60,879 bases of DNA from a virus. The stretch's first letter is position 1. Every line of letters starts with the position of its first letter. This document shows, piece after piece, positions 39,578 to 58,298 of this stretch. The notes under the pieces were generated by a model that did no database searches, was not told the DNA's origin, and was given only the letters and a program-made list of their open reading frames with translations. The position numbers and the translations under genes are program-made. The stretch covers positions 1-60,879 of IMG/VR virus record IMGVR_UViG_3300021378_000024; one strand, written 5' to 3'.

Positions 39578-39594
39578 TTATGCGTGGCGCATAA
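39578..39594. repeat. TTATGC palindrome, copy 1
   Basis: TTATGC-GTGGC-GCATAA, about 100 bases before the first rightward gene. Leftmost full copy of the family. Confidence 0.85.
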
Positions 39595-39632
39595 TCGCGC
39601 GCCAATATGCGGCCATGCGCTGACAGACACGT

Positions 39633-39659
39633 TTGACCGTGATATAAGTGTCTTATCGA
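39633..39659 (+). promoter_or_regulatory. Weak promoter/operator candidate before the first early gene
   Basis: TTGACC at 39633-39638 and TATCGA at 39654-39659, spacing 15, flanked by inverted AGACAC (39625-39630) and GTGTCT (39648-39653). The -10 match is poor, so this is only a candidate for the promoter of the 39698 gene. Confidence 0.25.
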
Positions 39660-39697
39660 ATCAGCAATAACGCTGACGATGTAACCGGAGCACTATC

Positions 39698-40219
39698 ATG
39701 ACTAACTCAATCGCTAATAACCCCGCAATCGCTGACGCAATCATTGCCACCGGCAAGGCTGAGGGCGGCGCCACCAAGGCCCACGCCGCTTTCTATGACA
39801 CGTGCGAGACATTGCACGGCCTCAATGTTATGGCCGACGACCTCAAGAGCGGCGGCCGTTACTATCAAATGGCATATGACCTGCTAGCAGAGTCGCGTTT
39901 GAACAAGACTGAGCTGGACACGTTGCGCGCTGAAGGCCCGATGAAGGCTGGCACGCCTAAGCACAAGATCGGCAACAAGATCGGCGCCGTTATGCGTAAC
40001 ATACGCAACAACCTGCGCAAGATCGAGGGAGCCGTCGCGGGCAAGCCAAAAGGCGAACCGGCCGGTTTCGTGGATCTTTGCATGAAGGACCTACAGGCGT
40101 CCTATGCTAGGGCCATGAAGGACCGGACAGGCGAACCGGCCGCAATCGACCATGCCGCCTTCATGGCGCACATCCAAGCCGCTGCCGACGTTCTGGGCAA
40201 GGCGCTTAAGGACAAGTAA
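39698..40219 (+). CDS. Early hypothetical protein, 173 aa
   Basis: The first rightward gene and a single-gene transcription unit with its own terminator. It is helical and basic in the middle (KHKIGNKIGAVMRNIRNNLRKIEGAVAGKPK), with an Ala/Asn-rich N-terminus. Isolation next to the control region and the strong terminator suggest an abundant early product such as a DNA-binding or host-takeover protein, but no family is recognised. Confidence 0.75.
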   Translation: MTNSIANNPAIADAIIATGKAEGGATKAHAAFYDTCETLHGLNVMADDLKSGGRYYQMAYDLLAESRLNKTELDTLRAEGPMKAGTPKHKIGNKIGAVMRNIRNNLRKIEGAVAGKPKGEPAGFVDLCMKDLQASYARAMKDRTGEPAAIDHAAFMAHIQAAADVLGKALKDK

Positions 40220-40226
40220 CGACACT

Positions 40227-40257
40227 GGGCGGCACCTTCGGGTGCCGCCCTTTTTTT
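40227..40257 (+). terminator. Rho-independent terminator after the 39698 gene
   Basis: GGGCGGCACC (40227-40236), TTCG, GGTGCCGCCC (40241-40250), then seven T. A very strong hairpin 7 bases after the stop codon. Confidence 0.93.
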
Positions 40258-40320
40258 GTGCCTTGGCGCGTCGCACCAGTTCCCCAGCATCAGGCACAGC
40301 GTGCGGCACGGGGCCGGTCT

Positions 40321-40350
40321 GACCAGTTCCATCCACAGCATGAGGCACGT
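40321..40350. repeat. 30-bp direct repeat, copy A
   Basis: Starts GACCAGTTCCATCCACAGCA and ends TGAGGCACGT. A degenerate, shorter relative lies at 40274-40300. Confidence 0.85.
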
Positions 40351-40401
40351 CGCACGGCCCGAAATCGGCCACAACCACAGCGCGAATCGCGTCTGGCGGC
40401 G

Positions 40402-40418
40402 TTATGCGCGGCGCATAA
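40402..40418. repeat. TTATGC palindrome, copy 2
   Basis: TTATGC-GCGGC-GCATAA in non-coding DNA, flanked by G and C so that the arms extend to 7 bp. Confidence 0.85.
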
Positions 40419-40452
40419 CGAAAAAATTCCGGAAAAAATGTCGCCGCAAAAC

Positions 40453-40508
40453 TAAGCTCCCTGCGCTTGCTAACGCTGCTTTGCTGCGTAGCGACGCTTA
40501 GGAGCTTA
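40453..40508. other. Imperfect long hairpin or cruciform
   Basis: TAAGCTCC (40453-40460) pairs with GGAGCTTA (40501-40508); the enclosed sequence (TGCGCTTGCTAACGC / GCGTAGCGACGC) is itself partly self-complementary. No T-run. It could be a structured RNA or DNA cruciform. Confidence 0.35.
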
Positions 40509-40550
40509 CCAAGATTTTCAAATCTGTCAACCCCCCAAACCGCAAAATCT

Positions 40551-40580
40551 CACCAGTTCCATCCACAGCATGAGGCACGT
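40551..40580. repeat. 30-bp direct repeat, copy B
   Basis: Differs from copy A only at its first base (C for G); the next 29 bases are identical. A TTATGC palindrome follows 6 bases later. Confidence 0.85.
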
Positions 40581-40586
40581 TGACTG

Positions 40587-40603
40587 TTATGCGCCGCGCA
40601 TAA
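40587..40603. repeat. TTATGC palindrome, copy 3
   Basis: TTATGC-GCCGC-GCATAA, with flanking G/C extending the arms to 7 bp; directly after 30-bp repeat B. Confidence 0.85.
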
Positions 40604-40653
40604 CGACGGGAACATCCTAACCCATTGTATCTACGTAATGTTCTCAGATCCAT

Positions 40654-40683
40654 GACCAGTTCCAGCCACAGCGTGAGGCCCGT
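40654..40683. repeat. 30-bp direct repeat, copy C
   Basis: GACCAGTTCCAGCCACAGCG then TGAGGCCCGT: three substitutions from copy A. Confidence 0.8.
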
Positions 40684-40699
40684 AAGCCGTTGATACTAA

Positions 40700-41080
40700 A
40701 CGAAAGTTCCCGAGTTTGCCCGAATGTTCTCGGCTCGGGAACATTTAAGTTATTGAAATCATTGGGAACAATAGCAATTGTTCCAATGTTCCCGGATTCC
40801 GAAGGTATACCCCAAGAAAAGTAAAAACGGAGTTCTGTATAAATGGTTATACACAGACGTTCGAAGCAAAAAAAGTCCGGATAACTTCGGAAAATGGGTA
40901 TTTTTGGAACAAAAGAACATTATGCAATATCAAGGACTTAGCATGACTCTATTATTATTATTATTATTCAAATACTTAACTACTACTACTACCATAACGT
41001 GCATAAAAAATCCTTTGTTTTCAATGCCCCCCAAATGTTCCCGGCCCCAAGAACAATCAGAACAATGCCCGGAACAATGC
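40700..41080. promoter_or_regulatory. AT-rich stretch dense in GGAACA/TGTTCC motifs
   Basis: About a dozen GAACA or TGTTC motifs in both orientations lie here, for example near 40705, 40725, 40738, 40765, 40779, 40787, 40906, 41036, 41050 and 41071. ATTGGGAACAAT (40761-40772) and AATTGTTCCAAT (40776-40787) form an imperfect dyad. Microsatellites ATT (40950-40967) and TAC (about 40979-40992) are present. Confidence 0.5.
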
Positions 41081-41084
41081 CATA

Positions 41085-41101
41085 TTATGCGCCGAGCATA
41101 A
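41085..41101. repeat. TTATGC palindrome, copy 4
   Basis: TTATGC-GCCGA-GCATAA, about 50 bases before the promoter at 41153. Confidence 0.85.
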
Positions 41102-41152
41102 TGTTACCACGTAAAATCTCACTTCCTATGTCAAATATCCTCCAGCTACATC

Positions 41153-41181
41153 TTGACATATAACGTGTTATATGATACACT
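41153..41181 (+). promoter_or_regulatory. Strong sigma-70-type promoter with embedded 18-bp dyad
   Basis: TTGACA (41153-41158), 17-base spacer, TACACT (41176-41181). Inside lies CATATAAC-GT-GTTATATG (41157-41174), a perfect dyad with 8-bp arms lying between the -35 and -10 boxes. A repressor bound here would block polymerase. It points at the rightward accessory genes that begin at 41833. Confidence 0.6.
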
Positions 41182-41295
41182 CGAAGAGTGTTGTGTTTGA
41201 TGGGCTTGGTCGCCCGTGCTATTTGACATTGCTGCTCGCATTCTGCCTTGTCCGCCTCGCGCGGCATCGCGGTTTGCCCCTCTGCTAGGCTTCCA

Positions 41296-41312
41296 TTATG
41301 CGTCCCGCATAA
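41296..41312. repeat. TTATGC palindrome, copy 5
   Basis: TTATGC-GTCCC-GCATAA in the transcribed leader downstream of the 41153 promoter; no adjacent start codon with a ribosome site. Confidence 0.85.
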
Positions 41313-41452
41313 CCCCGCCGATCATGCTAGACGACCTGCCGACCTATTGCCTCGGGGTGACGAAAAAATCCCGCTGCGTTGTGCGTCACGTCTCACAAGA
41401 TGAGCCCCCTGCTTCCTTGCCGCCTTCCACAAGCGGCCCGGTTCACCACCTA

Positions 41453-41469
41453 TTATGCTCCGTGCATAA
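41453..41469. repeat. TTATGC palindrome, copy 6
   Basis: TTATGC-TCCGT-GCATAA, flanked by A and T (8-bp total arms with partial match); leader region. Confidence 0.85.
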
Positions 41470-41756
41470 TGGTTGGCTTACGCCGAGCACAATGCCCGGC
41501 GCCGCACCGGTGCGAAGTAAGCGCCAGACTTGCCTAAGAAGCTGTGTGTCCCCAAGGACAAAGACGTGCCGCCCCCAACCCGCGCCATGCGCGGGACGGA
41601 CAACCGACAAGATGCAAGACGGACCCGAAACACGGGCACGGACCCTCGCGATGCGAGGCCCGAACGAACATACAAAGCAGGCGTTCAACGAAACACTGCA
41701 CCATGCGGACTGACAACCCGCGCGGTGCTCGGGACAACACAACCCAACGCCGAGCA

Positions 41757-41826
41757 TTATGCTCGCCCCTGCATAGCAGGGGACAACCACACCACGCCGA
41801 GCATTATGCTCAGCGCATAATAGGAG
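41757..41826. repeat. Composite element: half palindrome, CCCCTGC hairpin, full palindrome (copy 7)
   Basis: TTATGC (41757-41762) with degenerate partner GCATAG, overlapping a perfect hairpin CCCCTGC-ATA-GCAGGGG (41766-41782), then CCACACCACGCCGAG and the full palindrome TTATGC-TCAGC-GCATAA (41804-41820) and AGGAG. Twelve bases separate the palindrome from the ATG at 41833. The same order recurs at 42645-42711. Confidence 0.8.
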
Positions 41827-41832
41827 ACCACC

Positions 41833-42129
41833 ATGACTACATTTGAAACGATCACCCTTTCCCTGCCTGCACACTGGCTTTGCCCTATCCTTTACGGCGA
41901 CACCAGCGGCCTTGACGAGGCCGAGGATCGTGCCTTTTCACGATGGCTGGACGACACCATCCGCGACATTGGTCACGGCACCCTGCCGACGATCGGCACC
42001 ATCAAGGACGACCCCTACTTCGCCCGGTATCACGACGCTGCCGAATACGGTGTGCTGGCGTGTGACTGCTACGACGTCGAGCTGTGTGTGCCTGCAACAC
42101 CAACGCCGATCGTTATGCGCGACGCATAA
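41833..42129 (+). CDS. Small conserved accessory protein, 98 aa
   Basis: TITLSLPAHWLCPILYGDTSGLDEAEDRAFSRWLDDTIRDIG then YFARYHDAAEYGVLACDCYDVELCV. This compact layout is typical of small proteins spread on plasmids and phages of proteobacteria, with no proven function. AGGAG precedes the start. Its stop codon TAA is part of the next palindrome (42113-42129), so element and gene end are interlocked. Confidence 0.75.
   Translation: MTTFETITLSLPAHWLCPILYGDTSGLDEAEDRAFSRWLDDTIRDIGHGTLPTIGTIKDDPYFARYHDAAEYGVLACDCYDVELCVPATPTPIVMRDA
42113..42129. repeat. TTATGC palindrome, copy 8
   Basis: TTATGC-GCGAC-GCATAA, overlapping the last codons and stop of the preceding gene; 13 bases before the ATG at 42143, with AGGAG between. 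Confidence 0.85.
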
Positions 42130-42142
42130 TAGGAGACTGACC

Positions 42143-42448
42143 ATGACGACCACTATAACAACTGCGGACGAGTTCTTTGATACCTACGTGCGCGACGGCG
42201 CATATGACCGCGAGGGCGGCCATGCCGCCCTGCAAAAGCTGCACAACACCGACCGCGGGGCGTTCTACCGCCTGATGACAAGCCCTGAATTTGTAGCGCG
42301 GGCTGTCGCAAACGCCCATGCCTTCGGCATTGTCGATGAGGTGCATGACAACGACGCGGAGATCGACGAGCTCATTGCCGAGGCCGAAGAGCTCGAAGAG
42401 CGTGCCGCCCACCTTCGTGCCTCCGCGGACGCGCTACGCGATGCGTAG
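42143..42448 (+). CDS. Hypothetical protein with C-terminal coiled coil, 101 aa
   Basis: Starts at 42143 behind AGGAG, although the frame is open further upstream. N-terminal half TADEFFDTYVRDGAYDREGGHAALQKLHNTDRGAFYRLM; the C-terminal half is an acidic coiled coil (DNDAEIDELIAEAEELEERAAHLRASADAL). Probably oligomeric. Not recognised. Confidence 0.75.
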   Translation: MTTTITTADEFFDTYVRDGAYDREGGHAALQKLHNTDRGAFYRLMTSPEFVARAVANAHAFGIVDEVHDNDAEIDELIAEAEELEERAAHLRASADALRDA

Positions 42449-42644
42449 GGCCACATGCGTCGACTGCGGCGATACATTCCCCCGGCGCCGTGCGGCGCTG
42501 GGCTACACCACATGCCTGTCGTGCGGCGATGCCGAAGCCGTTGCAGCCCGTGCGACATGGGCTGTCGTTCCCCTGCCCAAGCAGGGTTACACGCGCATCA
42601 CGCGCAAAGAAGAACTGCACCACCTCAACCAGAAGCCGCGCTGA
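42441..42644 (+). CDS. Zinc-ribbon small protein, 67 aa
   Basis: CVDCGDTFPRRRAALGYTTCLSCGDAEAVAAR gives two CxxC knuckles; WAVVPLPKQGYTRITRKEELHHLNQK is a conserved tail known from many phage proteins of this type. Overlaps the previous gene by 8 bases. Function unknown; nucleic-acid binding is plausible. Confidence 0.75.
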   Translation: MRRATCVDCGDTFPRRRAALGYTTCLSCGDAEAVAARATWAVVPLPKQGYTRITRKEELHHLNQKPR

Positions 42645-42711
42645 TTATGCGCCCCCCTGCATAGCAGGGGACACCACCACGCCGGGCATTATGCGCGGCG
42701 TATAATAGGAG
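42645..42711. repeat. Composite element, second copy, with palindrome copy 9
   Basis: TTATGC (42645), hairpin CCCCTGC-ATA-GCAGGGG (42654-42670), CCACCACGCCGGG, then TTATGC-GCGGC-GTATAA (42689-42705, one mismatch) and AGGAG. Twelve bases to the ATG at 42718. Parallel to 41757-41826, so this is a duplicated regulatory cassette. Confidence 0.8.
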
Positions 42712-42717
42712 CCCAAC

Positions 42718-43029
42718 ATGACTACACCATCCCACGTCCGCAAGTTTCTGGACATATCGACCGCACACATCACCGAAAACACTGCGGGGATGCTTGACGA
42801 CTCCGTGCATCAGTTCCTCGGGACTGCGCCGTGCATAGCCTACCCCCTAGGGGACACAGGCTGGCTTGTGTATGTGCCGTCTGATGACAGCCCGAACACC
42901 AATACACTCGCTGAGTTTCACCCAGACCTGCTGACCTGCATGGAATACGCCCGCCAGCACAACTGCGACTACATCATGTTCGATCAGGACGGCACCGTGA
43001 TCGACGACCTCCCTGCATATGATTGGTAA
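42718..43029 (+). CDS. DUF5983-like protein, 103 aa
   Basis: LDISTAHITENTAGMLDD, IAYPLGDTGWLVYVPSDD and ARQHNCDYIMFDQDGTVIDDLPAYDW match the DUF5983 layout, a small accessory protein of plasmids and phages with unknown function. It follows a composite palindrome element. Confidence 0.75.
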   Translation: MTTPSHVRKFLDISTAHITENTAGMLDDSVHQFLGTAPCIAYPLGDTGWLVYVPSDDSPNTNTLAEFHPDLLTCMEYARQHNCDYIMFDQDGTVIDDLPAYDW

Positions 43030-43072
43030 CGGCACTGATGAGACAGGCCAACCTTCAAGAAGGACTGAGAGA

Positions 43073-43315
43073 ATGGAATGGGATTTCCGCTTTGTGAACA
43101 TGCCGTCCGGCAACGGCGGTGATGACTGGATCGAACTGCGTGAGGTCTACTACAGCGACGACGGTAGCCTCATGGGTCACTCTAACCCATGCCCCGGCAG
43201 CGAGACTGTCGAGGGCATCAAGCAACTGGCGCAGTGGTGGCTGCGGGCAAGTGAGTTGCCCGTGCTGCACGAGAAGGACTTCCCGTCCGACTTTGAACCT
43301 GAAGCCAATTACTGA
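43073..43315 (+). CDS. Hypothetical protein, 80 aa
   Basis: Starts at MEWDFRFVNMPSGNGGDDWI behind AAGGACTGAGAG. The frame is open upstream, but the ribosome site supports 43073. Acidic, with a central DDWIELREVYYSDDG strand and GIKQLAQWWLRA helix. Not recognised. Confidence 0.65.
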   Translation: MEWDFRFVNMPSGNGGDDWIELREVYYSDDGSLMGHSNPCPGSETVEGIKQLAQWWLRASELPVLHEKDFPSDFEPEANY

Positions 43316-43328
43316 AAGGACTGAGAGC

Positions 43329-43541
43329 ATGAGCAAGTTTATTCTGTTTAGCCACCATACCTACTACCCCTACGGAGGGATGGGCGACTGCGAGGGTGTG
43401 TTCGACACCCTGCAAGATGCGCTGGCAGCGCCTCGTTTCGGGCCCAACTTCGAGGTGCTGCAAGTGCCTGAAATGATCGTCCACGAGCAAGACGGGCGAG
43501 CGATACCCATAACCGATTACATCAAACGCGAGGAGGAGTAA
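43329..43541 (+). CDS. Hypothetical protein, 70 aa
   Basis: Start at 43329 (MSKFILFSHHTYYPYGGMGD) preceded by AAAGGACTGAGAG, almost the same leader as the gene before. FDTLQDALAAPRFGPNFEVLQV follows a small alpha/beta layout. The reading frame extends upstream only because the neighbouring gene blocks stops. Function unknown. Confidence 0.65.
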   Translation: MSKFILFSHHTYYPYGGMGDCEGVFDTLQDALAAPRFGPNFEVLQVPEMIVHEQDGRAIPITDYIKREEE

Positions 43542-43545
43542 CACC

Positions 43546-43914
43546 ATGAGCACCAAACGTATCACTCACGCCGACATCGTTGCCGACGATGCATTCCGCA
43601 AGGCCTTCTCGGCTATATGCCGACGCGCCCTGCCTTACATGGCTGAGGATGCCTACCACATGGACCTGATATTCGACGCCGAACAAGCCACACGGCTCAA
43701 CCCCGGCGACCGCTTCTACCTGCTGGTGCGTAAGCTGGGGACCAACAACTTCGGATACCCGGACGACGCCGTGCGGCACTGCGACCCGGCTATGAGTGAC
43801 GGGCAGGCTGTCCTGCGTGTCATGCGTGGCTCATACGACACCTTCACCGTCACCGTGCACTACGACAGGAAGCGCGGGCATTATGCTCAGCGCATAACAG
43901 GAGAACCGCTATGA
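43546..43914 (+). CDS. Hypothetical protein, 122 aa
   Basis: THADIVADDAFRKAFSAICRRALPYMAEDAYHMDLIFDAEQATRLNPGDRFYLLVRKLGTNNFG. The last codons (HYAQRITGEPL) are encoded by the palindrome element at 43881-43897 and the ribosome site of the next gene, so the C-terminus is probably a by-product of element insertion. Not recognised. Confidence 0.65.
   Translation: MSTKRITHADIVADDAFRKAFSAICRRALPYMAEDAYHMDLIFDAEQATRLNPGDRFYLLVRKLGTNNFGYPDDAVRHCDPAMSDGQAVLRVMRGSYDTFTVTVHYDRKRGHYAQRITGEPL
43881..43897. repeat. TTATGC palindrome, copy 10
   Basis: TTATGC-TCAGC-GCATAA, 13 bases before the ATG at 43911, with AGGAG; it lies inside the 3' end of the preceding coding frame. Confidence 0.85.
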
Positions 43915-44135
43915 TCGGCCACGACGTTGGCCATGGCCGTGCCAGCGGCGCTGGCCGTGGCAACGGCAACGGCAACGGCTTCGGCAAAGGTGCCGGAGAC
44001 GGCGACGGCTATGGCGTTGGCATCGGTAACGACAGCGGCTTCGGCAACGGCAGCGGCCGTGGCGATGGCAACGGCTCCGGTGACGGCATGGCCCCCGGCT
44101 ATGGCGACGGCGCCGGATACGGAGAAGCACTATGA
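43911..44135 (+). CDS. Glycine-rich low-complexity protein A, 74 aa
   Basis: Nearly every second residue is Gly (GRGNGNGNGFGKGAGDGDGY then GVGIGNDSGFGNGSGRGDGN). The DNA is made of GGCAAC/GGCGAC/GGCAGC-type hexamers. A ribosome site and palindrome precede it. The stop overlaps the next start (ATGA). The pattern is not the RTX nonapeptide. Perhaps a disordered, phase-separating or surface-coating peptide; unknown. Confidence 0.65.
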   Translation: MIGHDVGHGRASGAGRGNGNGNGFGKGAGDGDGYGVGIGNDSGFGNGSGRGDGNGSGDGMAPGYGDGAGYGEAL

Positions 44136-44359
44136 TCGACAACGGCGACGGCAGCGGCAAAGGCACCGCCAACGGCGCTGGCGACGGATACGGCGGCGGG
44201 TATGGCACCGGCAGTGCCAGCGGCTATGGCGATGGATACCACCGATGCGGTCGCGGCACCGGCTACGGCCACGAAGAAACAGCATTACACATACGCATGA
44301 AGGAGACACAGCGTGTTCGACACACTCATAAACACCCCAGTAATCATCCGTTCAAATGA
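44132..44359 (+). CDS. Glycine-rich low-complexity protein B, 75 aa
   Basis: The first 47 residues are of the same X-Gly type (NGDGSGKGTANGAGDGYGGG), then a basic His-rich tail (HIRMKETQRVRHTHKHPSNHPFK). It is a tandem paralogue of the gene before it. The last 47 bases overlap the next gene's start, so the tail may be incidental. Confidence 0.55.
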   Translation: MIDNGDGSGKGTANGAGDGYGGGYGTGSASGYGDGYHRCGRGTGYGHEETALHIRMKETQRVRHTHKHPSNHPFK

Positions 44360-44621
44360 CAGTGGGGTGCATTACGGCTACCTCGCCGAAGTCATCGACA
44401 GCGGGCGGACTGTCCGGCTCACCAACAGCCGTCGCTTGTGGAAGTGGAAGGTTGCCGGAAACGGCATATCCCTGAGCGAGGTTGCTATCACAGGAATCGA
44501 CCACAGCGAGTCGCGCATCACCATGCCGCTGCCCAACCTTGTGGTTGTGGGCGTGTGCGAGATCATCCCCGCGCACGGCATGGCGACAGCCACAATCGAA
44601 GGTGCCCCCGTGGCATCATAA
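44313..44621 (+). CDS. DUF6948-like protein, 102 aa
   Basis: NTPVIIRSNDSGVHYGYLAEVIDSGRTVRLTNSRRLWKWKVAGNGISLSEVAITGIDHSESRITM is the layout of a small conserved phage/plasmid protein (DUF6948-like) of unknown role. It starts inside the preceding Gly-rich frame after AGGAGACACAGC. Confidence 0.75.
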   Translation: MFDTLINTPVIIRSNDSGVHYGYLAEVIDSGRTVRLTNSRRLWKWKVAGNGISLSEVAITGIDHSESRITMPLPNLVVVGVCEIIPAHGMATATIEGAPVAS

Positions 44622-44640
44622 GCTACACCAATGCCGGGCA

Positions 44641-44657
44641 TTATGCTCGGCGCATAA
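44641..44657. repeat. TTATGC palindrome, copy 11
   Basis: TTATGC-TCGGC-GCATAA; upstream GCCGGGCA (44633-44640) can pair with TGCTCGGC (44644-44651) as an alternative hairpin. Fifteen bases to the MoxR ATPase start. Confidence 0.85.
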
Positions 44658-44672
44658 CTACGGAGAACCACT

Positions 44673-45767
44673 ATGACTAACCAAGCACATGCAATGTATA
44701 ACGTCGACCTCGATCAGGCGACGCAGATGATCGCCACCATGGGCCACAAGCGCACCATTCTGGTGCAGGGCCACATGGGCACCGGCAAGTCCAGCATGCT
44801 CAAGACGCTGGCGGATATGTTTCCCAACCATATCCCCTGCTACTTCGACGCCACGACCAAGGACCTCGGCGACCTGATGCTGCCGCGCATCGCCGAACTC
44901 GATGCAGGTGCAAGCTATGTCAGCTACGCACCCAACGAAGAGCTGGGCATCCACCACAGTCGGCCTGTGATCGTCATGCTGGACGAGTATGGCAAGGCCA
45001 ACCCCGCCGTGAAGCAGGGTCTAACTGCCTTCATGCTGGAGCGTCGCATGGGCAACCTCAAGCTGCACCCGGACAGCATTGTGTTTGCCACGACAAACCT
45101 CGGCGGCGAGGGCGTGGGCGACATGCTGGTGGCGCACCAGCGCAACCGCATCACCGTGGTGACGCTGAAGAAGCCCGACTATATGAACTACATCGAGTGG
45201 GGTATCAACAACGGCATCGACCACACCCTGCTCGGATGGGTCAAGGACAACCCCCATGTGTTCCAGTCCTTCGAGGATGTGCAGAACCCCGAAGACAACC
45301 CCTACATCTTCCACCCTCGCTCGCAGCGGGCGGCCTTCGTCACGCCACGGTCGCTCGAAGCTGCATCGGACTGGCTAAAGGTAAGGGACCGCCTCGACGA
45401 CATGAGCCTCACCGCGGCGCTGATCGGCACGGTGGGCGACCGGGCGGCCATGGACCTCATGGCCTTCGTGCGTCTGTCCAACGACCTGCCGACACTCAAG
45501 TCGATCAAGGAGACCCCCGAGACGGCCAAGGTGCCAGAGTCCGCCGCAGCCGTGTGCATGGTGGTCTATCGCACACTGGCCAGCATCGAGGCCGATTGGC
45601 TTGACGCGTGGATGACATACCTAAACCGGCTGCCTGCCGAGGCGCAGGGCCTGTTCGCTAACGGCGTGCGGGCACCGAAGTATGCCAAGCAGGGCCTTGT
45701 CATGACAAACAAGGCCTTCACTCAGTGGGCTCGGGCAAAAAGTCACTTGTTCGCCGCGGATGTGTAA
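44673..45767 (+). CDS. MoxR-type AAA+ ATPase
   Basis: A 364-aa ATPase. Walker A GHMGTGKSS (33-41), Walker B VIVMLDEYGKA (D104, E105), sensor 1 IVFATTNLGG, and an arginine-finger-type HQRNRITVVTL. The C-terminal helical part suits the MoxR clade. It leads a three-gene module with a helical protein and a VWA metallopeptidase, the same pairing logic as RavA-ViaA and MoxR-VWA systems, which remodel or activate protein complexes. The target here is unknown. Confidence 0.85.
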   Translation: MTNQAHAMYNVDLDQATQMIATMGHKRTILVQGHMGTGKSSMLKTLADMFPNHIPCYFDATTKDLGDLMLPRIAELDAGASYVSYAPNEELGIHHSRPVIVMLDEYGKANPAVKQGLTAFMLERRMGNLKLHPDSIVFATTNLGGEGVGDMLVAHQRNRITVVTLKKPDYMNYIEWGINNGIDHTLLGWVKDNPHVFQSFEDVQNPEDNPYIFHPRSQRAAFVTPRSLEAASDWLKVRDRLDDMSLTAALIGTVGDRAAMDLMAFVRLSNDLPTLKSIKETPETAKVPESAAAVCMVVYRTLASIEADWLDAWMTYLNRLPAEAQGLFANGVRAPKYAKQGLVMTNKAFTQWARAKSHLFAADV

Positions 45768-45775
45768 CTGGTCAT

Positions 45776-45802
45776 AAATCGCCAAAATTTTTACGGCGAT
45801 TT
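45776..45802. promoter_or_regulatory. AT-rich hairpin after the MoxR gene
   Basis: AAATCGCC (45776-45783) can pair with GGCGATTT at 45795-45802, or with either of two more copies further on. No clear T-run; it may be a weak attenuator or just slippage-derived. Confidence 0.4.
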
Positions 45803-45827
45803 AACGGCGATTTAACGGCGATTTAAC
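45795..45827. repeat. Three GGCGATTTAAC repeats forming CtrA-box-like TTAA-N7-TTAA-N7-TTAAC
   Basis: Three exact 11-bp copies. Read from 45801 they give TTAA-CGGCGAT-TTAA-CGGCGAT-TTAAC, two overlapping matches to the TTAA-N7-TTAA consensus of the alphaproteobacterial cell-cycle regulator CtrA. They lie about 50 bases before the second gene of the MoxR module. Confidence 0.6.
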
Positions 45828-45839
45828 CCGCCCGGCGCC

Positions 45840-45856
45840 TTATGCGCCGGGCATAA
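45840..45856. repeat. TTATGC palindrome, copy 12
   Basis: TTATGC-GCCGG-GCATAA; upstream CCCGGCGC (45831-45838) pairs perfectly with GCGCCGGG (45844-45851), so two exclusive hairpins are possible. Nineteen bases to the ATG at 45876. Confidence 0.85.
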
Positions 45857-45875
45857 CAACCTGAAAGGTAATACA

Positions 45876-46819: not shown

Positions 46820-46834
46820 TTACAGGAGAACAAC

Positions 46835-52068: not shown

Positions 52069-52070
52069 CA

Positions 52071-52343
52071 ATGACCGACTTTGAAACCAACCCCGTTGGC
52101 ACAGGGGAGCGGATCGAGGAACTTGAGGCGAAGTTGGCGAAGGCGATTGCAGAAATGGAAAAGGCTGATGGATACCTTACACGCCTACAAACTCGTAACT
52201 CCGAACCTCTCAATAGTGTAAATGGCTGCGGCAGCAAAAAGGGACGCAGCCAATATACTGCAATGGTAAGAAACGAAGCCAGAGAATATTGGGCATCGTT
52301 AGGGAACACCCTCGCAGAACTGAAAGGACAAGACGATGAGTGA
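52071..52343 (+). CDS. Small coiled-coil protein, 90 aa
   Basis: TDFETNPVGTGERIEELEAKLAKAIAEMEKADGYL is a short module plus coiled coil; the C-terminus LAELKGQDDE is encoded by a 28-bp repeat (52311-52338) shared with the gene at 52859. The middle (NSEPLNSVNGCGSKKGRSQYTAMVRNEARE) is less GC-rich. Not recognised. Confidence 0.65.
   Translation: MTDFETNPVGTGERIEELEAKLAKAIAEMEKADGYLTRLQTRNSEPLNSVNGCGSKKGRSQYTAMVRNEAREYWASLGNTLAELKGQDDE
52311..52338. repeat. 28-bp direct repeat at a gene junction, copy 1
   Basis: CTCGCAGAACTGAAAGGACA then AGACGATG; encodes a C-terminus, supplies the ribosome site AAAGGA and the start of the next gene. Identical to 53120-53147. Confidence 0.9.
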
Positions 52344-52616
52344 CAATCTCATAAACTTAGATGAACACCGCCCGCATATCACAGCATACGTCGCCTGCAT
52401 TGACTGCGCTAAGGACTGGATAGCTGTCGCACCCGCAGACACGCTTCACTTTAACTGCCCGGAGTGCGACAAACTTTCCGGTGTGGTTGTTGATCCTGCC
52501 AACCCTGAGTTTATCAACGACTTCATGCGGCCAGCCAAAAAGAAGGCAGAGAAACAGCGCCGCACAATGGTGATGCTAAACGCGGCCCGCATGATTGACG
52601 AGGGGGCTTTTGACTG

Positions 52617-52617
<1 letters not shown>
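52336..52617 (+). CDS. CxxC zinc-finger-type small protein, 93 aa
   Basis: YVACIDCAKDWIAVAPADTLHFNCPECDKLSG gives two CxxC pairs about 18 residues apart, a zinc-ribbon layout. The C-terminus is basic helix (KKKAEKQRRTMVMLNAARMI). Probably nucleic-acid or protein binding; unknown. Confidence 0.7.
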
Positions 52618-52858
<241 letters not shown>

Positions 52859-52862
<4 letters not shown>

Positions 52863-53158
52863 TGACTAAGTGGACACTACCAGAGGGGCGCAAGCCCCTC
52901 ACCGACGCCGACATTGCAGCACTGACGCGCCGTCTCGCTGGCACGGCTGTTGACTACAAGGAGCTGTATCAGGCTGCCAAGCGTGACGCAGAAGAGGCCG
53001 AGGCCTATGTCGCGGAACTGGAAGCCAAGCTGAAAGCCTCAGAGGACTTCGGTCTGCGTCTGGAGCGCTTTGCGGATCAAGCCGGAGATACATTTTTGTT
53101 GCAGAGGGCGCGTGAGTTCCTCGCAGAACTGAAAGGACAAGACGATGGAAGAAATTGA
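52859..53158 (+). CDS. Small coiled-coil protein, 99 aa
   Basis: LTDADIAALTRRLAGTAVDYKELYQAAKRDAEEAEAYVAELEAKLKASEDFGLRLERFADQAGD is a coiled coil; the C-terminus LAELKGQDDG repeats that of the 52071 protein. Not recognised. Confidence 0.65.
53120..53147. repeat. 28-bp direct repeat at a gene junction, copy 2
   Basis: Identical to 52311-52338; again spans a C-terminus, an AAAGGA ribosome site and the next ATG. Confidence 0.9.
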
Positions 53159-53618
53159 AGTGATGTGCACAACCGTGCTCGCCACAAACACGGCGTTTGC
53201 GGTGCGGGCCGACACAGGGGAGCAAGTGTTTGTCCCCTCTGCGGTAGCCCATGCCGCTCAGCTACAAGTCGGTGACATCGTGCGGGCGACCGTTGTGCCT
53301 AATACACACTACCCGGAAAAGACACCGTGGTTCGCCATTCGCGTCGAGCGGGACGCCCCCGTGCCAGCTTTGATCGCGCAGGATAGCCTCGACCAGCGCA
53401 TTGTCGAATACCTCGACGTACAACCGGCCTATGCCACCACGTCAGAGGTTGCAGAGGAGTTCAACGTAGACACGACGATCGCGGGCAATGCACTGAACCG
53501 CGTGTTCCGTCGGGGTCAAGCCGTGAGAGCCGATGTGTATTCCAAGCCGGATCAACAGCGGGCTTCGTTCTGTTTGTGGGCCGCCAACACAAGCAGGTTT
53601 GTGGAGGTCGATCTGTGA
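53145..53618 (+). CDS. OB-fold/cold-shock-like plus winged-helix-like protein, 157 aa
   Basis: N-terminal 80 residues (TTVLATNTAFAVRADTGEQVFVPSAVAHAAQLQVGDIVRATVVPN) follow the strand order of a cold-shock or S1-like OB fold. The C-terminal half (DQRIVEYLDVQPAYATTSEVAEEFNVDTTIAGNALNRVFRRGQAVRADVY) looks like a winged helix. The pair suggests an RNA/DNA-binding regulator. Its start lies in the 28-bp repeat. Confidence 0.65.
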   Translation: MEEIEVMCTTVLATNTAFAVRADTGEQVFVPSAVAHAAQLQVGDIVRATVVPNTHYPEKTPWFAIRVERDAPVPALIAQDSLDQRIVEYLDVQPAYATTSEVAEEFNVDTTIAGNALNRVFRRGQAVRADVYSKPDQQRASFCLWAANTSRFVEVDL

Positions 53619-53842
53619 CCCCTGCAGCCAAGAGAGCCAAGGAGGCCAAGGACGAGTTCGACGCCATGGTCAAAGCAGCCGCCCCCGGAGAACGCATAAC
53701 CTACCACACAGGGGACCGCGCGGGGGGCCCGTACAAGTATGCGGCATACGCAGCATACGAGAGGGGCGACGTGTTGCTGGTGCAGCGTAGGGTCGGGGTA
53801 GCACTGTTCGACTACCTCGCTGTTCGGGTGAAGAAGAAATGA
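53615..53842 (+). CDS. Hypothetical basic protein, 75 aa, GTG start
   Basis: GTG at 53615 overlaps the previous stop (GTGA) and is preferred to an upstream ATG at 53576, which would overlap by 43 bases. TPAAKRAKEAKDEFDAMVKAAAPGERITYHTGDRAGGPYKYAAYAAYERGDVLLVQRRVG. Unknown. Confidence 0.6.
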   Translation: MTPAAKRAKEAKDEFDAMVKAAAPGERITYHTGDRAGGPYKYAAYAAYERGDVLLVQRRVGVALFDYLAVRVKKK

Positions 53843-54099
53843 GGCGGCGTCCGATACCGCGCCGGAAACCGGCAACGAAGGCGACCGAGCGGCAGCGCGA
53901 CGAGCAGCTGGCCATGGTCATGCACCTGCGAGAGAACGAGGGGATGACGTTCGGGCAGATGGCCCCCCATGTGCACATGACACGGCACGCGTGCATCGGT
54001 GCCTACCATCGCCTGCGTGATGCCTATGAGGCGAGTTGCGAGTGCACTAAACCCGAAAACAAAGATGGCGGCATGGAGCCCCTATGGTGGAGGACCTGA
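53839..54099 (+). CDS. GcrA-like helix-turn-helix regulator
   Basis: An 86-aa basic protein. ENEGMTFGQMAPHVHMTRHACIGAYHRLRD is a helix-turn-helix whose second helix TR-x-A-x-IG-x2-HRL follows the TRNAVIGKVHRL motif of GcrA, a cell-cycle regulator of Alphaproteobacteria that recognises GANTC-methylated promoters. A Cys pair follows (CECTK). It may redirect host transcription. The link to GcrA rests on this motif only. Confidence 0.6.
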   Translation: MRRRPIPRRKPATKATERQRDEQLAMVMHLRENEGMTFGQMAPHVHMTRHACIGAYHRLRDAYEASCECTKPENKDGGMEPLWWRT

Positions 54100-54100
54100 C

Positions 54101-54487
54101 ATGACACAGACTGAAGAAAGATGCTGGCAATACCTGCTGGCAAACCGGGATGCCACGACCGAAGACGTGGTGCTCAACTGCGATGTATCGCTGGGCTATG
54201 CCGAGGAGCTCATGGCTCGGATCAGCAGTCCCAACTGGCGTGAACCTGTCAGTGCCCTCGAAGGGCAGGTCGGCGGGTCCCACTACAAGGATATGGAGGT
54301 CCAGCCTTGGCAGGCCATGGAAGCGTGGCTCACTCCCGAAGAGTACCGAGGCTATCATAAGGGTGTAGCCATTGGCTACCTCGCACGGGAACGGCAAAAA
54401 GGGGGACTGCAGGATATCGAGAAGGCCATCCACCACCTGAACAGGCTTGTGGAGGTAGAACGTGACAGACCTACCAAAGCAGATTGA
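54101..54487 (+). CDS. DUF3310-domain protein, 128 aa
   Basis: Start at 54101 (MTQTEERCWQYLLANRDATT) just after the previous stop. The C-terminal half carries VGGSHYKDMEVQPWQAMEAWLTPEEYRGYHKGVAIGYLARERQKGGLQDIEKAIHHLNRLVE, the DUF3310 domain of many phage nucleotide-kinase-like proteins. The N-terminal half looks like a small HTH (TTEDVVLNCDVSLGYAEELM). Confidence 0.8.
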   Translation: MTQTEERCWQYLLANRDATTEDVVLNCDVSLGYAEELMARISSPNWREPVSALEGQVGGSHYKDMEVQPWQAMEAWLTPEEYRGYHKGVAIGYLARERQKGGLQDIEKAIHHLNRLVEVERDRPTKAD

Positions 54488-54496
54488 AGGCAGCGC

Positions 54497-54513
54497 TTAT
54501 GCGCGGCGCATAA
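54497..54513. repeat. TTATGC palindrome, copy 16
   Basis: TTATGC-GCGGC-GCATAA; fifteen bases to the ATG at 54529, with AAAGGAGA. It is the only full copy between 49.2 and 58.2 kb and marks the start of the replication block. Confidence 0.85.
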
Positions 54514-54528
54514 CAAAGGAGAACCAAC

Positions 54529-55065
54529 ATGCACATCATGATCGACATTGAGACTATGGGCACGCGCCCAACTGCACCTATCGTATCGTTCGGGGCCGTG
54601 GCGTTCGACGCCGACGGCATCCACCATAAGTTCTACCGCGCGGTGGACCTCAACTCTGCCGTTGTCAGCGGTGCCGTCATCGAGCCCGGCACTGTACTGT
54701 GGTGGTTGGACCAGAGCGACGACGCCCGGGCAGCCCTGACTACCGACATCGTCGAGCCCATTGGCGACGTACTGGTGGCATTCCAAGAGTTTGTTGCAGG
54801 TCTACCGGGCGGGGTCGGCGCCCTGCGTGGCGTCTGGGGCAACGGTGCGACATTCGACAACGTGCTGGTTGCCGAGGCGTACAAGCGGTTGGACATGCTG
54901 GTGCCATGGCCATTCTGGAAGGACCGTTGCTATCGCACCGTGAGGACCATGTTTCCGGCGGTGGAACTGGTCAGAAATGGAACGCACCACCATGCGCTAG
55001 CCGACGCCGAGACGCAAGCGCAGCACCTGATCGCGATCAGCGAGAGTGCGGGCGGCCTGCTATGA
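54529..55065 (+). CDS. DEDDh 3'-5' exonuclease (DexA/RNase T-like)
   Basis: A 178-aa nuclease. Exo I IMIDIETMGTRPTAPIVSFGAV (D-x-E), Exo II WGNGATFDNVLV (N...FD), Exo III HHHALADAETQAQHL (H...D). Layout matches the phage exonuclease A-type family. It probably degrades host or processing intermediates. Confidence 0.85.
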   Translation: MHIMIDIETMGTRPTAPIVSFGAVAFDADGIHHKFYRAVDLNSAVVSGAVIEPGTVLWWLDQSDDARAALTTDIVEPIGDVLVAFQEFVAGLPGGVGALRGVWGNGATFDNVLVAEAYKRLDMLVPWPFWKDRCYRTVRTMFPAVELVRNGTHHHALADAETQAQHLIAISESAGGLL

Positions 55066-55505
55066 ACCCGATAGATACACCCCGACTGCAAGAGTGGGCC
55101 ATCGACATGGCCAAGCACGTGGCCAAGTTGAGCAAGGACCCCTCCACGAAAGTGGGGGCGGTCATCTTCGACCCGAAGAGACGCATCGTCAGTGCGGGCT
55201 ACAACGGTTTCGCCCGAGGTGTGGATGACACGGCGGAGCGACTGACCAACCGCGACGCCAAGTTGAAGATGACACTGCACGCCGAGAAGAACGCCATCCT
55301 GTTCGCCACAGCTCCTCTGGACGGCTGCACAATGGCGGTCACTCACCCCTGTTGCGCGCAGTGTGCCGCGCAGGCTATTCAAGCGGGCATCAAGCACGTC
55401 GTGTGGCCGCGCCCCGCGCCAGAGTTCATGGCGCGTTGGGCCGAAGACTACAAGCTGAGCAAGGCGCAGTTCGCAGAGGTGGGCGTTACCGTGGAGGAAG
55501 TGTGA
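55062..55505 (+). CDS. dCMP/cytidine-type deaminase
   Basis: Start at 55062 overlaps the previous stop (ATGA); 147 aa. HAEKNAIL (H73, E75) and PCCAQC (C98, C101) are the zinc and catalytic motifs; DPSTKVGAVIFDP is the family start. It converts dCMP to dUMP for dTMP synthesis. No thymidylate synthase is seen nearby. It ends on the polymerase start. Confidence 0.88.
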   Translation: MNPIDTPRLQEWAIDMAKHVAKLSKDPSTKVGAVIFDPKRRIVSAGYNGFARGVDDTAERLTNRDAKLKMTLHAEKNAILFATAPLDGCTMAVTHPCCAQCAAQAIQAGIKHVVWPRPAPEFMARWAEDYKLSKAQFAEVGVTVEEV

Positions 55506-57340
55506 TGGACACTATCGCATGCGACTTTGAGACGTTCTACTCCCGCGAGTATTCACTATCCAAGATGACCACCGAAGAGTATATCCGCGACCCGCGGTTT
55601 CAGGTGATCGGCGTCTCGGTAAAGGTCAATGAGGGCGATACCGGGTGGTTCTCCGGCACGGCCAAGGAGACCTTGGCATTCCTGCGCCAGTACGACTGGG
55701 AAAACAGCGCTATGATTGCGCACAACACGCTGTTCGACGGTGCGATCATGTCTTGGCGGTGCGGTATCAGGCCGAAAGTGCTGATCGACACACTGTCCAT
55801 GTCTCGGGCCATGTTTGGCGTCGACGCCGGGCACAGCCTCAAGGCACTGGCGGGTCGACTGGGCCTGCCGGCCAAAGGCGACGAAGTAACTCGCGCAATC
55901 GGCAAGCGCCGCGCCGATTTCACCGCGAGGGAGATGCACGACTACGGCGAATACTGCCGCCTCGACGTGCACCTGACATACGAAGCGTTCCGCAAGATGA
56001 CGCTCATGGGGTTCCCCAAGAGCGAGCTGAAGCTGATCGACCTTACGCTGAAGATGTTCACCGACCCTGCGCTGGAGCTCGACGTGCCGCACCTGCAGGG
56101 GCACCTGATACGGACGCAACGAGAGAAAGAGCAGATGCTCGCTGATGCGGGTATAGCCGACCGCAGGGACCTGCTGTCAAACCAGAAGTTCGCTGACCTG
56201 CTACGCGGCCTTGGTGTCGAGCCGCCGATGAAGACCAGCCCGGCAACGGGTAAGCCAACGTATGCATTTGCCAAGAACGACGAGAGCTTTCAGGCGTTGG
56301 CAGAGCACGACGACTTGCGGGTACAGACGCTTGTATCGGCGCGGCTGGGCACCAAGAGCACGCTAGAGGAAACGCGCACCGAACGGTTCATCTCCATCGG
56401 ACAGCGGGGCAAGTTCCCAGTGCCGCTGCGCTACTACGCCGCCCACACCGGGCGGTGGGGCGGCACTGACAAGATCAACATGCAGAACCTGCCGTCGCGT
56501 GGACCGAACGCCAAGCAGCTCAAGAAGGCCATCCGGGCCCCGGAGGGCTACATGCTGGTGGACTGCGACTCATCGCAGATCGAGGCCCGCGTGCTGGCAT
56601 GGCTGGCGGAGCAGGAAGATCTGGTGGCGGCGTTCGCCCGGGGCGAGGACGTCTACAAGATCATGGCGTCCAAAATATACGGCGTCGACGTCGCCGATAT
56701 CGACAAAGGCCAGAGGCAGGTGGGCAAGACCGTCATCCTCGGTGCCGGGTACGGCGTCGGCCACAACAAGCTGCAGCTATTCCTCAAGACGCAGGCGGGG
56801 GTAGACGTGGACCTCGACGAGGCCAAGCGCATCATCGACATTTACCGCCACTTAAACGCTCGCATCAGTGGGCTGTGGAAGTCAGCGCAACGCACCGTAG
56901 AATACCTCGAACGCGGTGACGCACTCGCTTTCGGCCGGCCCGGCGTGCTCGGCGTCGACGTTGACGACACAGCCATCGTACTGCCAAACGGATTACCTAT
57001 CCGATACGACGGACTGTTTGCTGAACAGGGGGAGAAGGGGTACGAGTATCAGTACAAAACGCGTCGCGGACCGAAGCGGCTATATGGTGGCGCGTGCGTC
57101 GAGAATGTAACCCAAGCACTTGCACGTATCGTGGTTGGCGAACAGATGCTTAAAATAGCGAAACGGTATCGCGTGGTGTTGACTGTGCATGACAGCGTGG
57201 TATCCTGTGTACCCGAGGCCGAGGTAGGCGAGGCGCGGGAGTATATCGAAACCTGCATGCGCTGGACCCCGGACTGGGCCGAAGGGCTACCCGTCAACTG
57301 CGAGTCTGGTGTTGGCGAGAGCTATGGAGATTGCGAATGA
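55505..57340 (+). CDS. Family A DNA polymerase with 3'-5' exonuclease
   Basis: 611 aa from the TGATG-coupled ATG at 55505. Exo motifs: CDFETFYS, HNTLFDGAI, YGEYCRLDVHLTYE. Polymerase motif A LVDCDSSQIEARVLAWLAEQ, motif B RQVGKTVILGAGYG, motif C LTVHDSVV. In motif B the position equivalent to E. coli Phe762 is Leu412. It replicates the phage genome with the primase-helicase. In published surveys Leu at this site is associated with slower, often temperate phages, though no integrase is present here. Confidence 0.95.
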   Translation: MDTIACDFETFYSREYSLSKMTTEEYIRDPRFQVIGVSVKVNEGDTGWFSGTAKETLAFLRQYDWENSAMIAHNTLFDGAIMSWRCGIRPKVLIDTLSMSRAMFGVDAGHSLKALAGRLGLPAKGDEVTRAIGKRRADFTAREMHDYGEYCRLDVHLTYEAFRKMTLMGFPKSELKLIDLTLKMFTDPALELDVPHLQGHLIRTQREKEQMLADAGIADRRDLLSNQKFADLLRGLGVEPPMKTSPATGKPTYAFAKNDESFQALAEHDDLRVQTLVSARLGTKSTLEETRTERFISIGQRGKFPVPLRYYAAHTGRWGGTDKINMQNLPSRGPNAKQLKKAIRAPEGYMLVDCDSSQIEARVLAWLAEQEDLVAAFARGEDVYKIMASKIYGVDVADIDKGQRQVGKTVILGAGYGVGHNKLQLFLKTQAGVDVDLDEAKRIIDIYRHLNARISGLWKSAQRTVEYLERGDALAFGRPGVLGVDVDDTAIVLPNGLPIRYDGLFAEQGEKGYEYQYKTRRGPKRLYGGACVENVTQALARIVVGEQMLKIAKRYRVVLTVHDSVVSCVPEAEVGEAREYIETCMRWTPDWAEGLPVNCESGVGESYGDCE

Positions 57341-58014
57341 GCAAGCCAGCATCCCCCGCACCGTGGTCGTTCAGCCGGATAAAGGCCTTTGAGACCTGCC
57401 CAAAGCAGTTCTATCACACAACAGTGCTCAAGCAGTTTCCCTATCAGGAAACAGAGGCGATGCGCTACGGCACCGAGTTTCACAAGGCGGCGGAAGACTT
57501 CATCCGTGACGGCACCCCGGTGCCTGAGCGGTTCGCCTTCGCCAAGCCCGCGCTTGATGCGCTGGCGGCCAAGCCGGGCGAGAAACTCTGTGAGCAAAAG
57601 CTGGGCATCACTGCCGGGCTCGAACCCTGCGGCTTCTTCGATAACGACGTCTGGTTCCGTGGCATCGTGGACTTGCTCATCATCGACGGCGACGAAGCGA
57701 CCATAGTAGATTATAAGACCGGCAAGTCCGCTCGCTACGCCGAAAAGGGCCAACTCGAGCTCATGGCGCTATCAGTGCTCCGCCACTTTCCGCAGGTGCA
57801 GAAAATCCGTGCTGGTCTGATCTTTGTCATCGCCAACGACTTCGTGAAGGCCAGCTATGAACGCACAGGACAGAAAGAACTGTGGAGGAAATGGCTCTCG
57901 AACTATGCTAGTATGGAGACGGCGTTCGAGAAGGGTGTGTGGAACCCCAAGCCGAGCGGACTGTGCAAACGGCACTGCCCCGTGCAGGAGTGCCCCCACA
58001 ATGGACTATACTGA
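57337..58014 (+). CDS. Cas4/RecB-like PD-(D/E)XK nuclease with Fe-S-type cysteines
   Basis: 225 aa from the ATGA-coupled ATG at 57337. GTEFHKAAEDF (His), RGIVDLLIIDGDEATIVDYKTGK (D...D-x-K), and KGQLELMAL are the nuclease motifs. Cys21 (FETCPK) and a C-terminal CKRHCPVQEC cluster fit a Cas4/AddB-type iron-sulphur site. It probably processes DNA ends in recombination or packaging-linked replication. Confidence 0.82.
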   Translation: MSKPASPAPWSFSRIKAFETCPKQFYHTTVLKQFPYQETEAMRYGTEFHKAAEDFIRDGTPVPERFAFAKPALDALAAKPGEKLCEQKLGITAGLEPCGFFDNDVWFRGIVDLLIIDGDEATIVDYKTGKSARYAEKGQLELMALSVLRHFPQVQKIRAGLIFVIANDFVKASYERTGQKELWRKWLSNYASMETAFEKGVWNPKPSGLCKRHCPVQECPHNGLY

Positions 58015-58280
58015 TGCCATACAAGAACAACGCAGACCGGCCATACGGTCGTGAATACCAGCTCCAGAAAGCTCGCGGTGAGCAAGAGGCCCGCAACGAG
58101 CGGGCCCGGGCCCGCTATGCGTTCGACAAGAAGAACGGCAAGGCAGCCCGCAAGGGCAAAGACCTTGCCCACAGCAAGCCACTGTCCCGGGGCGGGTCTA
58201 ACAAAGACGGCGTAAAGCTGCAGAGCCCAAGCAAGAACCGTGCCGGCGGAGGTCGCATCAGCAAGCCGCCCAAGAAATAA
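58014..58280 (+). CDS. HNH-like small protein, 88 aa
   Basis: NADRPYGREYQLQKARGEQEARNERARARYAFDKKNGKAARKGKDLAHSKPLSRGGSNKDGVKLQSPSKNRAGGG. H-S-K-P-L-S-R-G-G-S-N...N-R is the core of HNH-type phage proteins, but the Cys pairs and full HNH triad are not complete. TGATG-coupled to the nuclease. DNA binding or nicking is possible. Confidence 0.7.
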   Translation: MPYKNNADRPYGREYQLQKARGEQEARNERARARYAFDKKNGKAARKGKDLAHSKPLSRGGSNKDGVKLQSPSKNRAGGGRISKPPKK

Positions 58281-58281
58281 A

Positions 58282-58298
58282 TTATGCGCCACGCATAA
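58282..58298. repeat. TTATGC palindrome, copy 17
   Basis: TTATGC-GCCAC-GCATAA, immediately after the previous stop; eleven bases to the helicase ATG at 58310. Last full copy. Confidence 0.85.

Follow-up and report, generated by a model that had tools for sequence, protein, structure and literature searches.

Private palindromes along phage early genes as candidate operators of a fast-changing phage regulator

Why would a phage carry the same palindrome 17 times, with many of the copies placed just ahead of a ribosome site? This question is raised by the IMG/VR virus record IMGVR_UViG_3300021378_000024, whose whole stretch of 60,879 bp was analyzed and is referred to here as the window, and in which the sequence TTATGC-N5-GCATAA recurs along the early genes. 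An original prediction, made from the sequence alone, had offered three explanations for this array, namely an operator for a phage regulator, an mRNA 5' hairpin that sets stability or translation, or a recombination seam between small gene cassettes. Our analysis of the window and of related phages points to the first of the three. More specifically, we propose that a dimeric phage-encoded protein, most likely the product of the gene at 39698-40219, binds the palindromes as DNA operators, with a shut-off of early transcription resembling that of the stoperators of mycobacteriophages. Given the sequence comparisons described below, we put the probability of this proposal at about 55%.

RESULTS

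The palindromes form an array restricted to the early region

A pattern scan of the window revealed 17 TTATGC-N5-GCATAA sites, 15 of them exact and two (42689 and 48056) with one mismatch. All of them lie in 39578-58298 and none in 1-39577, in agreement with the original prediction, which had listed the same 17 starts and noted none in the leftward late operon. A possible 18th match, at 50356, differs at one position and coincides in part with a ribosome site and a stop codon; it may be due to chance. Allowing up to two mismatches adds no further window site, and 100 shuffles searched in this way gave a mean of 1.1 and a largest count of 6; the 17 sites are far beyond chance. As predicted, the palindrome centers are GC-rich (86% G+C vs 60% for the whole window).

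The expected number of sites, 11, end 11-19 nt upstream of an ATG. These are 41804-41820 (12 nt upstream of ATG 41833), 42113-42129 (13 nt; ATG 42143), the one-mismatch site 42689-42705 (12 nt; ATG 42718), 43881-43897 (13 nt; ATG 43911), 44641-44657 (15 nt; ATG 44673, an ATPase), 45840-45856 (19 nt; ATG 45876, a DUF3150 protein), 46803-46819 (15 nt; ATG 46835, a metallopeptidase/VWA-like protein), the one-mismatch site 48056-48072 (13 nt; ATG 48086), 49123-49139 (15 nt; ATG 49155), 54497-54513 (15 nt; ATG 54529, an exonuclease-like protein), and 58282-58298 (11 nt; ATG 58310, an SNF2-like helicase). A family A DNA polymerase is also encoded among the window early genes. The AGGAG that had been reported between every one of these sites and its ATG is present in 9 of the 11, the exceptions being 44641 (CGGAG) and 45840 (AAAGG). 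Two overlaps with reading frames were confirmed: the last bases of site 42113 provide the stop codon of frame 41833-42129, and site 43881 falls within the end of frame 43546-43914.

The six remaining sites had all been assigned to a noncoding control region. This holds for five of them (40402-40418, 40587-40603, 41085-41101, 41296-41312, and 41453-41469), which lie in a stretch of 40.2-41.8 kb without an assigned gene, and not for the leftmost, 39578-39594, which is found to the left of gene 39698-40219. An Rfam scan of 39000-60879 returned 0 matches, and megablast of 39000-58800 against named phages found no match.

Many related phages or small groups have their own palindrome word

Related loci were collected as the best 80 of 598 from a search with the helicase protein and the best 80 of 122 from a search with the VWA-like protein. 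From among those with a clear word, 28 loci were hand-picked for the mismatch, half-site, and promoter counts, and 21 for the distance correlation. Near-identical contigs were partly removed from these two sets and kept in the repeated-word and upstream-site counts.

The TTATGC pattern combined with AGGAG matches 25 stretches in viral_contigs, at least 13 of which represent the helicase-gene site, whose arms are fixed and whose center is variable; one locus holds seven TTATGC copies within 3.9 kb (L023). The same place before the helicase gene is often occupied by other palindromes, such as TTATAC-N5-GTATAA, GTTAGGG-N4-CCCTAAC, and GTTAGTG-N3-CACTAAC. One palindrome word was present in at least three copies in 61 of the 80 VWA-found loci, and in 65 of 86 (~76%) once the window, L023, and four named phages were added. 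The corresponding number in shuffled sequences was 0 of 86 (maximum of 2 copies; five shuffles per locus). The words among relatives include TTATGC-N5, GTTAGGG-N4, GTTAGTC-N4, GTTAGTG-N3, GTTACC-N6, and TACTGT-N3, among others.

A scan of ten records for five words indicated that words are private to single phages or small groups. Seven records contained a single word (TTATGC, 11 and 8 copies; GTTAGG, 9, 6, and 20; TACTGT, 12; GTTACC, 15), one had 12 copies of GTTAGT and 1 of GTTAGG, and one (L135), whose own word is ATGACC, lacked all five. The tenth, record G006 (L113), contained two words, with 4 GTTAGT copies at 53-57 kb and 3 GTTAGG copies at 1.5, 5.1, and 11.3 kb. A reversed control pattern gave a single match across the whole scan. 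Among named phages, the Rhizobium isolate RHph_TM3_14A has the word GTTACC-N6-GGTAAC in 15 exact copies. No repeated palindrome was found in Rollin or Xp15, where no word exceeds 1 and 2 copies, respectively. YuA, which is counted among the 65 of 86, carries 3 copies of one word across 50 kb without the start-associated pattern; its annotated 28-bp repeats look unrelated to the palindromes.

The same gene starts are preceded by different words

We then considered 68 loci with a word, dropped near-duplicate upstream stretches, and sought the own word of each locus within 90 bp upstream of orthologues of the window genes. It was found upstream of 34 of 45 ATPase, 23 of 35 DUF3150, 18 of 45 VWA, and 5 of 13 helicase orthologues, and of 2 of 4 orthologues of 41833. 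Five site-free window genes intended as controls gave no orthologue rows in this count. Since the own word is common upstream of the ATPase and DUF3150 genes and rare or absent upstream of 48086, 49155, and 54529, the placement persists at some genes and not at others. By the original prediction, the idea of a selected element would be refuted if close relatives lacked the palindrome at these gene starts; this is partly the case, for some of the genes. Among 61 distinct stretches of 75 nt from directly upstream of the helicase gene, 36 contain a palindrome with arms of 6 bp, vs 2.6 expected from shuffles; counted by locus, the number is 42 of 80, 16 of these being of the TTATGC type. A recombination seam between cassettes does not account for different words at the same gene starts.

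The arms vary as expected of a DNA site rather than of an RNA stem

Within the 28 loci, we counted 232 perfect sites, 44 with a mismatch in one arm, 16 with two uncompensated mismatches, and 1 with a compensated pair. Thus, only 1 compensatory change stands against 60 uncompensated ones within phages, which is not the pattern of an mRNA hairpin; between phages, both arms change jointly, as in any palindrome. The half-site centers are 8-13 bp apart (9-12 bp in 26 of the 28 loci), and this spacing of approximately one helical turn would fit a dimer on one face of the helix. Because the arm mismatches are one-sided and the half-sites lie about one turn apart, we favor DNA operators for a dimer over RNA hairpins. 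The center is variable in many words and fixed in some (L128 and L137), and in L118 and RHph_TM3_14A some sites are found inside genes.

One result points in the opposite direction: at start-associated TTATGC sites (a set that takes in 50356), the upstream flank pairs with the left arm and center better than permuted flanks do, with 0 of 300 permutations reaching the observed pairing in the window and in L105, and p = 0.007 in L110. This pairing is absent from the window control-region sites (p = 0.76), from L106 (p = 0.23), and upstream in ten sets with other words (lowest p, 0.067, in L118), and three related GTTAGTC sets display a weaker downstream signal (p = 0.007-0.043). In our view, the pairing reflects an additional RNA hairpin that overlaps the palindrome in the GC-rich TTATGC group.

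Two further features of the early leaders were observed. A leader cassette is duplicated at 41739-41826 and ~42640-42715, each copy having the stem-loop CCCCTGCATAGCAGGGG (41766 and 42654) followed by a palindrome and a ribosome site. Directly after a palindrome, at 43911-44359, there are two overlapping small genes for Gly/Asn/Asp repeat proteins, and repetitive frames are also found near the palindrome sites at the end of G001 (L190).

A fast-evolving gene at the left end of the array is the best regulator candidate

The open reading frame (ORF) at 39698-40219 (+ strand; 173 aa) is located at the left end of the rightward genes, where it adjoins the leftward operon. It is flanked by palindromes and immediately followed by a terminator-like stem-loop with a T-run (40227-40250, + strand). 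Iterated profile searches in the loci gathered a family of 31 ORFs, including that of the window, with 12-27% identity to the window protein in alignment A1. A palindrome occurs within 250 bp upstream of 25 of these 31 ORFs and of 9 of the 10 ORFs at the equivalent position in other word groups, and no site lies farther left than the candidate's in 40 of 41 ORFs, several of the loci holding little DNA to the left. As for the six family members that lack an upstream site by this count, two ORFs start near the locus edge, and in L131 the frame start is over-long and takes in the site. The second of two L121 paralogues lies beside a word with a 5-nt spacer, L122 holds the counterpart of this ORF, and the first L121 paralogue has no site. 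The second L121 word, GTTAGGG-N5-CCCTAAC, occurs at 4063, 4210, and 6773, two of the copies being beside the second paralogue, and this combination offers a natural test of word-protein pairing.

The candidate changes fast, being less conserved than the median neighbor in 14 of 15 phage pairs. Between L160 and L154, which have the same word, the candidates share 70% identity, compared with at least 95% (median, 99) for 5 other ORFs that the two loci have in common; this may be read as very fast change or replacement of the gene. In a Mantel test on the 21 loci, word distance tracked the candidate (partial r = 0.42, p = 0.003). Within a second TTATGC phage, G002, the gene in the candidate's place is weakly similar to the window protein in a single comparison (24% over 100 aa, E = 5e-5). 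A site adjoins that gene, and genes of opposite direction follow, one of which resembles a large terminase by its motif.

No convincing Pfam or PHROGs match was found for 24 scanned members, and the family profile had no convincing PDB sequence match; 1 of the 24 weakly matches an Rv0623-like transcription factor (E = 0.0017). The models are all-helical, with a modest pLDDT of 72 for the window protein (best fold row a TetR-family protein, Z 5.0) and 88.5 for an L125 relative (best Z 5.8, on 46 residues of Lamassu LmuACB), and the best viral match in fold searches was an uncharacterized protein (E = 0.014). Among 50,697 phage records, the window, L125, L175, and L164 versions had no match and the RHph_TM3_14A version matched in 4 Rhizobium phages only, itself included; a viral-contig scan with the window protein found no relative.

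The original prediction had named two helix-turn-helix-like proteins, 53839 and 60288, as possible binders. Both were rejected as specificity proteins from the distribution of their relatives, those of 60288 being found in phages with different words or without a palindrome before the helicase gene, and 53839 having none in the loci. Collectively, these comparisons make 39698-40219 the best regulator candidate, and by position its link with the array appears strong.

Sites recur downstream of the main early promoter

In the window, the main early promoter-like site, TTGACA-17-TACACT, is found at 41153-41181 (+ strand; 10/12 match), with site 41085 centered at -96 and site 41296 at +116 from the expected start. 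Across the 28 loci, 25 have a promoter-like site matching 10-12 of 12 positions after the candidate gene and a palindrome centered at +18 to +131, the exceptions being L164 (+177), L129, and L113. The number of such promoters after the candidate gene is 32, vs 6.6 expected in shuffles. Of the control-region sites, 28 of 100 have a promoter 15-135 bp upstream, compared with 8% of random control-region positions; the corresponding counts are 15 of 112 for sites in the operon and 1 of 28 for the leftmost sites. The candidate's own promoter scored at least 10/12 in 7 cases, and in 6 of them a site is centered at -56 to -74 (four of the six share one word); the leftmost window site is centered at approximately -70 from the expected start of a CTGACA-17-TATAAG promoter-like site. 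The layout that recurs is site, candidate gene, promoter, site, genes.

Other features of the control region and phage lifestyle

A second noncoding repeat, approximately RCCAGTTCY-n8-10-GCG..G.GCC, was observed in the window at 40275, 40322, 40552, and 40655. Many word groups have 2-4 copies of it close to the control region (L118, L124, L125, L128, L129, L131, L135, and others), and one or none is present in L119, L137, L145, L154, L158, L160, L164, L169, and the TACTGT loci looked at. It stays similar where the palindrome changes and is iteron-like, possibly representing an origin. To the left of the array, at 39402-39455, lies a G-rich tract such as GGGGGTGGGGGG, which recurs, by eye, upstream of the leftmost site in many relatives and is a possible quadruplex or terminator element.

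The window and 8 related records, which may be incomplete, gave no match to the integrase (PF00589) or resolvase (PF00239) models. On the other hand, att sites and a "putative integrase protein" are annotated in the RHph_TM3_14A record, although the PF00589 and PF00239 models do not confirm this. A prophage search with the helicase and VWA proteins against genome_contigs found no relative, these scans detecting close relatives only.

DISCUSSION

The sites downstream of the main early promoter, together with those along the operon, fit a block to elongation. We postulate that a dimeric phage-encoded protein, most likely that of gene 39698-40219 (173 aa), builds up through expression from its own promoter, located at the late/early junction, and binds the palindromes, occupying the private word just past the main early promoter and at many early-operon gene starts. 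The bound regulator would block passing RNA polymerase, shutting down early transcription in stoperator fashion and thereby timing the early-to-late switch. Our confidence in the roadblock mechanism itself is moderate.

Several observations weigh against this interpretation. The own word was found upstream of only 1 of 8 orthologues of 48086 and of none of 2 each for 49155 and 54529; 27 of 45 VWA genes lack it, and 38 of 80 helicase loci have no 6-bp-arm palindrome before the gene. In RHph_TM3_14A, 3 of the 15 exact copies are at 5.8-10.7 kb, outside the stretch examined, and near-identical contigs inflate several of our counts. The candidate shows no convincing DNA-binding family or fold, and its homologues are recognizable in some word groups only, with unrelated-looking proteins in that place elsewhere. 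Since word distance follows the VWA protein too (partial r = 0.34, p = 0.001), the covariation with the candidate is not decisive. The constancy of the arms is partly built in, because the sites were located by their arms, and double compensated changes are rare events in any case. Finally, -56 to -74 is an activator-like or looping position.

The last point leads to the rival that we consider closest, though still rather unlikely. The same regulator and operators might serve activation or looping, with the protein stimulating its own promoter from approximately -60 to -70 and organizing the early DNA without any block to elongation. The upstream site at the candidate's promoter could indeed mean activation, looping, or a role for the leftward operon; nevertheless, 25 of 28 phages have the site of the main early promoter on the downstream side of the start, and the 11-19 nt that the start-associated window sites leave before the ATG give no space for a downstream promoter. 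It is that same spacing, together with the extra GC-rich hairpin that covaries at start-associated sites in the window, L105, and L110, that would be explained if the palindromes acted as mRNA hairpins before the ribosome site, influencing stability or translation, perhaps with an RNA-binding protein. We find this improbable and regard it as failing as the main explanation, given the one-armed uncompensated mismatches, the private words, the usually varying centers, the sites in noncoding control regions and inside genes, and the lack of flank covariation at the window control-region sites, in L106, and upstream in the ten other-word sets.

A role in replication, partition, or packaging, with the array serving as an origin or a centromere-like element, also seems doubtful. 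The arrays do lie near the late/early junction, and the dense sites in the noncoding region of the window are accompanied by the four iteron-like repeats, similar ones being found in many relatives; most sites, however, are spread across 10-20 kb, many at gene starts, and their geometry is linked to promoters. Phages of alphaproteobacteria are reported to be subject to host regulators such as CtrA (PMC9437464), and a host transcription factor could in principle bind the palindromes. This we judge to be the least probable of the alternatives, since phages with common early genes have many unlike words and the array is tied to one phage gene position.

If the palindromes are indeed operators for the candidate, the data would point to a little-known, fast-changing phage switch protein that recognizes only its own genome. 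Dispersed operators whose sequence differs between groups are already known in temperate mycobacteriophages. Here the same logic is found with palindromes and a candidate family without a convincing Pfam, PHROGs, or PDB match, across many uncultivated phages. That no integrase family was found in these phages raises the question of what role the system has outside lysogeny. Moreover, dozens of natural word-protein pairs make a change of DNA-binding specificity together with 10-20 sites at once directly testable. We speculate, at fairly long odds, that the words encode self-recognition in a large phage group without detectable integrases: the regulator would shut early transcription only on genomes with its own palindrome, timing its own cycle and excluding coinfecting close kin, and escape from shut-off by rivals would drive words and regulators apart.

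Known systems offer several points of comparison. The literature searched, at the level of abstracts, held no report of this element outside mycobacteriophages, which does not establish its absence from print. The stoperators of cluster A mycobacteriophages (L5 and Bxb1) are summarized as many dispersed sites, most of them off promoters, with a group-specific consensus and a cognate phage protein; they are 13 bp long, mostly in one orientation, and number 20-30 per genome, with a known repressor (PMC6550527), and are described as asymmetric (PMC9283540). The present arrays share the many dispersed early-gene sites and the consensus private to a phage group. In contrast, sites of the window type are symmetric and 15-25 bp long, no integrase family was found in the records scanned, and the candidate protein has no recognized fold. 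With respect to the elongation-blocking repressor of cluster A, only the position of sites downstream of promoters is suggestive here.

Placement is closer to the ESAS of cluster K mycobacteriophages, outlined in PMC3203893 as inverted repeats before the ribosome sites of nonstructural genes, with a consensus that differs by subcluster and for which its authors favor a DNA-binding protein; they are 17-bp imperfect repeats with a variable spacer of mostly 4-13 bp and are tied to the 13-bp start-associated sequence (SAS). The window sites likewise consist of an inverted repeat before the ribosome sites of a subset of nonstructural genes, and the cluster K analogy drawn in the original prediction is apt for ESAS as so outlined. 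The SAS itself, GGGATAGGAGCCC, is not enriched in the window (17 matches at up to 3 mismatches, 17.7 expected). A third parallel is SPBRE of the Bacillus phage SPbeta, an intergenic repeat that was subsequently identified as the site of one phage repressor, MrpR; as abstracted in PMC10516654, it is a 15-bp motif in the promoter regions of a prophage, and MrpR is tyrosine-recombinase-like. Our arrays, too, are a repeated element that we read as the site of one phage protein. With respect to the tyrosine-recombinase fold of MrpR, the window had no PF00589 match, and the candidate models gave no confident fold match. By analogy, the system resembles cluster A stoperators in logic, cluster K ESAS in placement, and SPBRE/MrpR in history.

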